Positions 18,021 to 23,570 of a DNA stretch of 64,000 nucleotides are shown here, one piece after another (the stretch's first letter is position 1; the number at the start of each line of letters is the position of its first letter). The stretch is from Thermoplasmatales archaeon E-plasma (GTDB lineage: Archaea > Thermoplasmatota > Thermoplasmata > Thermoplasmatales > Thermoplasmataceae): positions 496,001 to 560,000 of the forward strand of contig KI542675.1 in NCBI GenBank assembly GCA_000496135.1, read 5' to 3'. The notes below the pieces were generated by a model. The model was not told the origin of the DNA, did no database searches, and saw only the letters and a list, made by a program, of their open reading frames with translations. Made by a program: the position numbers and the translations under genes.

Positions 18021-18323
18021 TTATTCATGGGTCTCCCCTAATGTTTTTTCGTCGTCCGGTGTCAGCTTTATCTCCCTAACATGCAGGGTCAGAGAATACT
18101 GCCCTAGAAACTCAAGTACTTTTGGAGCATCTTCGTTCCTGAGTATCAGGACTCCTCTAAGCAGTTTTCTGTGAGGTATGTTCTCCAGCAAACCATGTCT
18201 GTGATACGTGTATTTTCCTTTCCATGAAGTTGAATCCTGCCCGTAGAATTTCTGCATGAACTTGTTTATTGTTCCATGATCGGACTTCTCAGGAAAATGA
18301 AAGAGTATCATTGTCCCATTCAT
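18021..18323 (-). CDS. small conserved-looking hypothetical protein
   Basis: A 100-residue soluble protein with no membrane segment. It starts MNGTMILFHFPEK, with an alternative start at the second Met (18311). Basic and aromatic residues cluster at GKYTYHRHGLLENIPHRK, a possible nucleic-acid or ligand surface, followed by a predicted beta strand RGVLILR. I have an impression of similar small proteins in other acidophilic archaea but cannot name a family. It ends two bases before the DUF3311-symporter pair. Its start codon lies at the edge of a perfect 9-bp palindrome next to the neighbouring insertion sequence. Confidence 0.55.
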   Translation of the reverse strand: MNGTMILFHFPEKSDHGTINKFMQKFYGQDSTSWKGKYTYHRHGLLENIPHRKLLRGVLILRNEDAPKVLEFLGQYSLTLHVREIKLTPDDEKTLGETHE

Positions 18324-19607: not shown

Positions 19608-20346
19608 TTAATATATTCGGTGATCCCATTTATGTGGTTTCACAAATCCTCTCGTCAATCTTATCCAGTATACTGGTATATACAGGAAATTTTTGATATT
19701 TCTTGAATTGCTGAGCATAAGAAATACAACAAGCAATGAATAAAGGTATTCTCTCAGTATGGATTCAGCAGTAAGCCTTACAAAGGCAAATTCGGCCAGT
19801 ATCTAAACTCTTCAGGGTATAAGTGTGAATCATTGAATTATTTACATATCTAACTTTCAGTTTTTGTTTTCTTAAATAACTCTGAATGTAGTAGGTTTCC
19901 CTGCCTTTTACATTTTCAGGAAAATCAATTGAGTTCAACGTGTGCCTTTCAATCATAGTTAAACCTAAAGGAAGTCCGTAATTGAAGGGGAAATGAAGTG
20001 AATTTCCAACTACGGCTCCCGTTTTAAACTTCTTGAAAAGATTAAGGGCGATATCCGGAAACTTATTGTTAATTAATTCAACATCGCTGTCTATAAACAG
20101 AATAAAATCCTTTGTACTGATCTTTCCGGCGATACCTGTTGCAAAAGATAGACCCTTGTCTTCATATATTATTTTAGATGCAAAACTTTCAGCAATACGT
20201 ACTGTATTATCTGTGCTTTTCCCATCTATCACAATAATATCTGCATCTGGAATAAGCCTCCTGATGGATGCTAAACATTTACCAATTCCTCTCTCCGAGT
20301 TTTTTGTTCTGATTACCACATCGAAGAGAGCATTGATATTTTTCAT
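19608..20346 (-). CDS. family 2 glycosyltransferase, frameshifted near the C-terminus
   Basis: GT-A fold glycosyltransferase that adds a sugar from a nucleotide sugar, probably to a lipid or surface glycan. VVIRTKNSERGIGKCLASI opens the nucleotide-binding domain, DGKSTDNT follows, and the metal-binding DSD motif is in FILFIDSDVELI. The first frame stops at 19765 with an odd Cys-rich tail. One base over, a clearly coding tail continues for about 60 residues, with a hydrophobic segment (YLYSLLVVFLML) and a basic end (RGFVKPHKWDHR), to a stop at 19608. The slip is near GGCC at 19794-19797. The corrected length is about 245 residues. It lies just beyond the second insertion sequence, and no other glycan gene is adjacent. 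Confidence 0.75.
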
Positions 20347-20466: not shown

Positions 20467-21522
20467 TCACATCTTTCCGTAAACGGCATTAAATTTTCTT
20501 ATCCTGTTAATCCTTTTCTCCGTGATATGTTGCATTCTTTTCTCATATCTAACCTGCTGTTTCTGTGTCATGGGGCGAAGCGGCACCATAAGGGATTTTT
20601 TCTTCTCTATGGCTGAAATAAAGGGATCAGCACCTGGAAGATGTTTGATTACGTTCAGGTCTGCTCTGGACTGAAGGAATGAGGAGAGTTTCAAAATGAA
20701 AAAAGGAACCGTGAGAATCATCATCAGCCCTGCAAATGACAGAACGAGAAGATAAATGAAATAAACCTGGGAAACGAGAGTAATAAGGAAGGATGAAATA
20801 AGTAGAATATCAACGGCGATAATCACATAAGCAGTTCCGGCAAGGATCAGTTTTTTGGCAACACCACCCTTTCTGGAATAATATGCTTCAAGAAGAACCG
20901 CATCGATCTGGGATGAATCCAGCTGTTGAATTGCACCATCTTTTAACATAACATGCCATTCTTTTCCGTTGGATGTTTCTGCAAATGATCGCATTATAGC
21001 CTTGTGGGATAAGTAAACATCGTGGTTACATTTATCTGTGCAATCCAGAAGGCTGTGCAGCCTTTCGGTGTATTCATTGCTAAAGTCATCCGGATTAAGA
21101 GTGACAGATTTTCCCAACCTGTGAAGCAATAATGCTGGGACTGCAAGTATGACGGCGTCTATGGGGATGAAAAGTAACAGTCTGTTTACAATGCCATGAG
21201 CAGACAAAATATAAACAACAGACCCAAGGATTATGAACAGGAGAAGTGAAACCAGTGCGAATATGCGAGGATTGATTTGCTTTACGTTCGGACCACGGCC
21301 AAATCTTAACAGGATATAAGATATTCCCATGGAAACAGGGAGAGCCAGAATAACACCTTCCTCCACAGTGATGATGCCAGACAGAACCAGTTGCGGTATG
21401 ACGAAAACCGGCATATAAATAAGTATGAACGAAACAAGTGAAACCATCATCTGCCTTATGTTACGCTTCATGTTGCCATGCAGATATTCTGAAATTATAT
21501 AAGTAAATTGATTTATCGGCAT
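20467..21522 (-). CDS. membrane protein resembling an M48/HtpX protease without its active site
   Basis: A 351-residue membrane protein. It has four N-terminal hydrophobic segments (to about residue 130), a soluble stretch, two further helices near 225-275, and a very basic C-terminal tail. The order matches HtpX-type M48 proteases. VYLSHKAIMRSFA corresponds to their strand before the active site, and LDSSQIDAVLLEAYYSRKGG aligns with their LxxxELxAVLAHELxHxKxxD. In place of HExxH it has EAYYS, so both zinc ligands are missing. SRADLNVIKHLPGADPFISAIEK resembles their SRxxExxAD segment, with the Glu gone. This looks like a pseudoprotease with an unknown role. The likeness is mine by eye and distant. 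Confidence 0.5.
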   Translation of the reverse strand: MPINQFTYIISEYLHGNMKRNIRQMMVSLVSFILIYMPVFVIPQLVLSGIITVEEGVILALPVSMGISYILLRFGRGPNVKQINPRIFALVSLLLFIILGSVVYILSAHGIVNRLLLFIPIDAVILAVPALLLHRLGKSVTLNPDDFSNEYTERLHSLLDCTDKCNHDVYLSHKAIMRSFAETSNGKEWHVMLKDGAIQQLDSSQIDAVLLEAYYSRKGGVAKKLILAGTAYVIIAVDILLISSFLITLVSQVYFIYLLVLSFAGLMMILTVPFFILKLSSFLQSRADLNVIKHLPGADPFISAIEKKKSLMVPLRPMTQKQQVRYEKRMQHITEKRINRIRKFNAVYGKM

Positions 21523-22231: not shown

Positions 22232-23570
22232 ATGTCATACATTATAGTCACGAGCCGTAGTCCCTATTCCTATGATAAGGTCAGGGGCAAAATCAACAGA
22301 AGGATGAACATTGGCGGTGTGGCAATAGTCTTAAACGATTTAATAACAGAAGAAGGAGGGACCTGGGTCTGCTGGGGCGATGGCACAGCGGATCTGGATT
22401 ATCAGGAGGAGGATAACGGAAAATTCAGAATCTTTAGAGTTATTTTGAGTGTACCGGAAAGGAGAGGATTTTATGATGAATATTCAAACTCCACTTTATG
22501 GCCGCTCTTTCACTATTTCAGGGAAAAGATCCAGCATGACCAGAAATATTTCAGGATGTACAGCAGAGTAAACAGCCTTTTTGCGGAATCAATAAAAAAG
22601 GCTATCCGCAGAGCGGATGAGGTAATATGGGTTCACGACTATCAGCTATCCCTCGTCCCGGGATTTCTCAGGAACCTCGGAGTTACGAATCCGATCATAT
22701 TCACATGGCATATTCCCTGGGGTCTCAAGGGAATTTTATTCCATACTTCCGGAGAGAGATCAGTTATTACAATCGATCGCTTCAGCCGATTCAATTACTT
22801 TCCATACGAAAGAATACAGAACAAATTTTAGAGATTCCTATGAAGCCCTAATCGGGGATCCAAAAAACCTTGACAAAAAGCTTCACTATTATCCACTGGG
22901 AATAGATTACAAAGCCTATGAAGATATTGAGAGATTCAGAAAGCTGCCGAAGCCCATGGAACGGCTAAAAATTATATTTTCCATAGACCGATTGGATTAT
23001 ACAAAAGGTCTCATAGCGAGGGTTAAGGCAATCGAAACACTTCTAAGGACTAACCCTGAGCTTTCGCAGAAATTTATGTACCTGATGATCGTTACTCCAA
23101 GCAGAACAAATGTAGGTCAATACATGGAACTCAAGAATGAGCTTGAAATGAATATCGGGAGAATTAATGGGGAATATGGCCGTATTGGGTGGTATCCAAT
23201 AACATATATCTACAGAAAGGTTTCACAGAAGACCTTGATAAACTATTACAAATGGGCAGATATAGCCCTCATTACACCATTAATCGATGGCCTTAATCTG
23301 GTGTGCAAGGAGTTTGTTGCAGCCAGCACCAAAGGGCTTCTAATTTTATCAGAATTTGCTGGTTCCTCAGAAGATTTAAAAGAGGCGGTTAAGGTTAATC
23401 CGAACTCAATCGAAGACCTTTCTTCCACCCTTTTTAAGGCTCTTTCAATGCCTGAATCTGAAATTATGGAAAGATTATCTCTCCTTAAGGAAAGAGTAAA
23501 AAGAAGAGATATTGAATGGTGGGCAAAGAAGGTTACTGATACCGTTAAGAGGAAAGAACCGGATGCCTGA
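22232..23570 (+). CDS. otsA: trehalose-6-phosphate synthase (GT20), frameshifted
   Basis: Joins a glucose from a nucleotide sugar to glucose-6-phosphate, the first step of trehalose synthesis. MNIGGVAIVL near the start, WVHDYQLSLVPGFLR, FTWHIPW, and later FSIDRLDYTKGLIARVKA are family signatures for substrate binding. The first frame ends at 22831. From about 22720 the next frame reads REFYSILPERDQLLQSI and FHTKEYRTNF and continues to 23570. Removing one G from GGGG at 22719-22722 gives HIPWVSREFYSIL and a single protein of about 445 residues, a normal length. The gene overlaps otsB by eight bases. Trehalose is a common compatible solute in acidophilic archaea. Confidence 0.88.

Follow-up and report, generated by a model that had tools for sequence, protein, structure and literature searches.

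Membrane pseudoproteases of the M48 fold form a family in Thermoplasmata

The 64,000-nucleotide stretch of DNA analysed here (the window) carries on its reverse strand a gene whose product is, as judged from sequence comparison, a membrane pseudoprotease derived from M48 metalloproteases. This assignment combines homology to M48 proteins, the loss of all three zinc ligands, membership of a single clade and purifying selection. The protein and its relatives form a new pseudoprotease family on the known M48 fold. The papers searched contained no description of this family, in agreement with an initial annotation made from the DNA sequence alone, which knew of no described system of this kind in Thermoplasmata. 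This establishes for archaea a family of membrane pseudoproteases with the M48 fold, whose own conserved residues can be mutated.

Gene and start site

The open reading frame at window positions 20467-21522 (reverse strand, 351 aa) is real, but translation very probably begins 17 codons further in, at Met18 (window 21471), which would give a 334-aa protein. This placement follows from close relatives, in which the sequence immediately before this Met contains a stop codon or lacks a start codon, and from a promoter-like box before Met18. A stop codon lies upstream of the aligned Met in the relatives L008 and L025, and L007 has no Met there. The box TTATATAA is found about 30 nt 5' of Met18 in the window gene and at equal distance in its close relatives, while most other relatives have similar AT-rich boxes ahead of the start. 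Its position fits a transcript that is probably leaderless and has a promoter of its own.

20467..21471, reverse strand: M48-derived pseudoprotease gene (334 aa; start corrected from the ORF end at 21522)
21495..21502, reverse strand: TATA box TTATATAA; transcript probably leaderless (spacing common to close relatives)

Homology to M48 proteases

Single-sequence searches with the window protein against Pfam, PDB sequences, NCBIfam, PADLOC and PHROGs gave no match, and the Pfam M48 model (PF01435) matched none of 20 family members. Because the single-sequence Pfam and PDB searches were empty, the kinship to M48 is visible only by profile and fold comparison. In hhalign, the family profile matched the M48s of the peptide/M48/SpoIIM cassettes described below at 99.2% (E = 2.3e-19) and HtpX at 97% (E = 1.2e-10), compared with 0.1% (E = 0.65) for the unrelated membrane protein SpoIIM, used as a control. 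The family profile also retrieved active M48s from the members' own genomes, including one in the window's genome (E = 3e-7). On these comparisons, the resemblance to M48 is far above chance.

The AF2 model of the window protein (mean pLDDT 82, pTM 0.67) was compared with the PDB using Foldseek. Its top matches were ZMPSTE24, BlaR1 and Ste24p (probability ~1.0, E = 2e-3), with low global TM-scores of 0.31-0.38, and the model of an active cassette M48, used as a positive control, returned an identical match list. The HtpX/M48 layout that the initial annotation had drawn by eye is thus borne out both by the profile-profile comparison and by the predicted fold, the two checks that it had proposed for that claim. 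The family resembles HtpX and Ste24/ZMPSTE24 (PF01435) in helix order, in the cytosolic domain between TM4 and TM5, in the V-Y strand and active-site helix, and in the Asp of ExxxAD and the C-terminal RIxxL helix, as well as in profile and fold. In contrast to PF01435 proteases, it lacks all three zinc ligands and has its own conserved Asp221 and TxGxxW motif, and the window protein falls outside the Pfam and NCBIfam M48 models. It would be a membrane protein of M48 fold with six helices that has lost catalysis; from the model helices and the positive-inside rule, its former protease domain is predicted to face the cytosol.

Lost and conserved residues

Residues were counted in the columns of an alignment containing 27 members of the family and 36 active relatives. 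The positions of the window protein that are discussed below are as follows.

21157..21159, reverse strand: Asp105 in TM4 (column counts)
20944..20991, reverse strand: edge-strand region with TxGxxW (alignment and orthologue conservation)
20875..20889, reverse strand: EAYYS at the place of HExxH (alignment columns)
20809..20811, reverse strand: Asp221 in TM5, hallmark of the family (alignment columns)
20671..20673, reverse strand: Gln267, replacing the Glu that is the third zinc ligand (alignment columns)
20659..20661, reverse strand: Asp271, the retained Asp of ExxxAD (alignment columns)
20479..20565, reverse strand: basic C-terminal helix ending in an M48-type RIxxI/L (columns 320-324; helix 303-331 in the AF2 model)

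The H, E and H of HExxH were found in all 36 active relatives and in 0/27 family members. The Glu that serves as third zinc ligand was present in 29/36 active relatives versus at most one of the 27. The replacement of HExxH by EAYYS noticed earlier is therefore confirmed, and the third ligand is also replaced, by Gln267. The survey of orthologues that had been suggested shows that the non-catalytic sequence is kept, and by sequence the protein belongs among pseudoproteases, its catalytic residues being lost across an orthologous group under purifying selection.

Other positions are retained or specific to the family. The Asp of the M48 ExxxAD motif was present in 36/36 active relatives and in 26/27 members. 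Asp221, in the middle of TM5, was likewise found in 26 of the 27 members and was seen in none of the active M48s, where this column consists mostly of gaps. Asp105, which follows Pro103 in TM4, was found in 18 of the 21 members of the main clade and is not conserved in the second; the aligned TM4 column is also Asp in HtpX. The TxGxxW motif of the edge strand is peculiar to the main clade. In gluzincins, the edge strand lines the substrate groove. Among five close orthologues, invariant positions made up 67% of the former HExxH helix and 69% of the edge strand, against 50% overall. Finally, HtpX and the cassette M48s have their C-terminal RIxxL helix where the window protein has its basic tail; by alignment the tail is thus an ordinary M48 element and not, as had been proposed, an added extension.

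Distribution, selection and origin of the family

Homologues were found in 21/117 genomes of the order. A profile of 20 members searched against 400 genomes of the class detected further members, nearly all in a single archaeal family (f1), with one outside it. Among public sequences, three named relatives are metagenome bins of Thermoplasmata. No readable member has HExxH. Occurrence is patchy (about a third of f1), and two genomes have broken copies, one with five in-frame stops (G074) and one with a broken frame (G102). These copies are decaying, so the gene is dispensable there. The dN/dS ratios of eight usable pairs, taken across clades, were 0.13-0.32. The family is under purifying selection, and the earlier claim that selection preserves the scaffold holds.

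A tree built from 75 M48-type proteins placed the family in one clade (support 93; 61 in a smaller first tree), which grouped with the cassette M48s apart from HtpX (support 96). A topology that unites the cassette proteases in a single clade was not rejected (p-AU 0.57); as far as these trees tell, the family may be nested inside the cassette proteases or be their sister, both being compatible with them. The HtpX-likeness proposed at first thus stands for the M48 fold, with the qualification that the nearest relatives are cassette M48s and not HtpX itself. Repeated loss of the zinc site by different members was considered and is unsupported, because all 27 in the alignment belong to a single clade. 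The family would descend from, or share an ancestor with, the cassette M48s, and a single loss of the zinc site would lie at the root of the clade, whose members are now dispersed within one Thermoplasmata family.

Within the window's genus, this version of the gene is present in just one of four genomes (the other three are 83-88% complete), and the nearest relatives of the window protein, with 59-67% identity, belong to another genus. This occurrence suggests horizontal spread of the gene. No plasmid or viral homologue was found at the sensitivity used.

Peptide/M48/SpoIIM cassettes of the active relatives

The active sister M48s sit between a short leader-peptide gene and a SpoIIM gene in many places in f1. 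The identity of SpoIIM was given by the Pfam SpoIIM model, above cut-off for one copy from the window's own genome. The product of the short gene consists of a conserved leader containing a single hydrophobic stretch and, after it, a variable hydrophobic core whose last residue is in most cases Ala, Tyr, Phe or Trp. Two such cassettes are present in the window's own genome but outside the window, on contig C3: L109 6463-9346 (~653-656 kb) and L110 6486-9045 (~894-897 kb). About 20 peptide genes like theirs occur in f1, with variable cores and conserved leaders. A second kind of cassette contains more distant M48s (L156 1839-4326, L157 2649-5205, L158 3428-5978 and L159 1093-3571). It has a different leader and a small similar precursor ending in Ala-Tyr, Ala-Phe or Thr-Phe, and in two of these four cases the peptide and M48 genes are divergently oriented.

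SpoIIM/DUF95 proteins are present in all known circular-bacteriocin clusters of the enterocin AS-48 type (PMC6131525). Which enzyme carries out the cleavage and cyclisation of circular bacteriocins is a longstanding question, and M48 genes have been noted in two such clusters (PMC8659200). We infer that the cassettes may be bacteriocin-like; the two in the window's genome resemble circular-bacteriocin systems. A dedicated M48 beside peptide and SpoIIM genes makes the question of circular-bacteriocin cleavage and cyclisation directly testable.

The cassette M48s (L109, L110 and others) resemble the pseudoproteases as a sister clade of equal size, with an ADR motif and no HP motif before the C-terminal RIxxL; unlike them, they keep HExxH and lie between the leader-peptide gene and SpoIIM. 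The likeness to circular-bacteriocin clusters lies in these relatives, which accompany SpoIIM and a peptide made of a leader plus a hydrophobic core. In genome G043, a dead M48 (L119 9364-10365, forward strand) is encoded between a cassette peptide gene and an active M48. It has QQVGL in place of HExxH and keeps the third ligand Glu. Judged by these residues, it seems to have lost its zinc site separately, although a common clade with the family was not rejected.

Cassettes were detected in 10/27 genomes with a pseudoprotease gene versus 6/50 without (p = 0.012; p = 0.015 by genus; both uncorrected for phylogeny). Against such a link, no cassette was detected in the other 17 of those 27 genomes. 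One orthologue only, in G062, adjoins a cassette, with a mobile-element protein and a truncated SpoIIM in between. This adjacency was rejected as proof of function because the intervening 100-aa gene is multi-copy and apparently belongs to a mobile element (five identical copies in the window's genome); it is probably accidental.

Possible roles of the pseudoprotease

We consider it probable that the protein as a whole is what its features suggest, a catalytically dead membrane protein of M48 fold that binds peptides or proteins. Its fold and groove would be kept by selection, and the old substrate groove would bind, without cutting, a membrane-embedded or membrane-inserting polypeptide. Hydrophobic peptides of the cassette type would be the likeliest class of ligand, given the kinship to cassette proteases, the co-occurrence, the patchy distribution and the separate dead M48 in the G043 cassette; the role would then resemble tolerance (immunity) or a chaperone. 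A role like bacteriocin immunity is put forward tentatively, and the binding of other membrane proteins is a similarly tentative suggestion. Known circular-bacteriocin immunity proteins are small, cationic and cluster-encoded, whereas this protein has 334 aa and its gene stands alone nearly everywhere. Rather doubtful is a more complete scheme, in which the dead M48 would be the tolerance protein of an archaeal circular-bacteriocin-like system, the active M48 its missing leader peptidase and SpoIIM the partner of the latter. The family would have arisen from a cassette maturase that lost its zinc site and kept peptide binding, and would then have spread as orphan resistance genes.

The non-catalytic role proposed initially included the regulation of an active HtpX. 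The selected pseudoprotease scaffold supports the first part of this proposal; regulation of HtpX does not hold as a rule. A regulatory or decoy subunit pairing with an active M48 or HtpX in the same membrane could be expected from the active membrane M48s that are its nearest relatives, from the many genomes that hold both and from G043, where a separate dead M48 adjoins an active one. However, the genomes of the four closest relatives (G104, G106, G107 and G108) carry the gene and no detectable PF01435 match, G104 being a single contig that is 97% complete and the other three only 66-86% complete, and the dead gene is as a rule not co-located with any M48. We therefore regard such pairing as very unlikely. 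No M48 partner would be needed by a quality-control adaptor that retains misfolded membrane proteins on behalf of another protease, such as membrane LonB, and the retained groove and membrane scaffold would suit this function. The analogy is with the inactive rhomboids iRhom and Derlin, which keep a membrane protease scaffold without catalytic residues and whose partners are known; they have a serine protease fold, unlike the M48 fold of this family. A patchy gene that occurs in about a third of the family f1 and decays in some genomes is unlike a housekeeping gene, making an adaptor unlikely.

Two further explanations are highly improbable. A new, non-zinc activity might use the transmembrane acids Asp221 and Asp105, conserved in the family and in its main clade respectively; yet no known catalytic motif is present, Asp105 is not conserved in the second clade and matches an Asp of HtpX in TM4, and a buried Asp may be structural. 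As for a decaying relic without function, the broken copies of G074 and G102 are what it predicts, but the low dN/dS across clades, the conserved motifs and the conserved promoter-like box speak against it. Binding through the former substrate groove thus remains the preferred reading.

Surroundings of the gene

The pseudoprotease gene stands alone in the window and in nearly all relatives. A conserved operon partner was sought around the family's genes and none was found; neighbourhoods vary by genus and are common only to close relatives. At window 18021-18323 (reverse strand) lies a gene for a 100-aa protein of unknown family, present in five identical copies in the genome, with truncated copies at contig ends elsewhere. 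It is probably part of a mobile element or the passenger of an insertion sequence. A short glycosyltransferase-like ORF (window 19765-20346, reverse strand, 193 aa), perhaps truncated, lies between the pseudoprotease gene and transposase fragments. On the forward strand, at window 22232-23570, a change of frame near 22700-22830 interrupts the gene for a trehalose-6-phosphate synthase, as a result of either a sequencing error or damage to the gene; an apparently intact phosphatase gene adjoins it.
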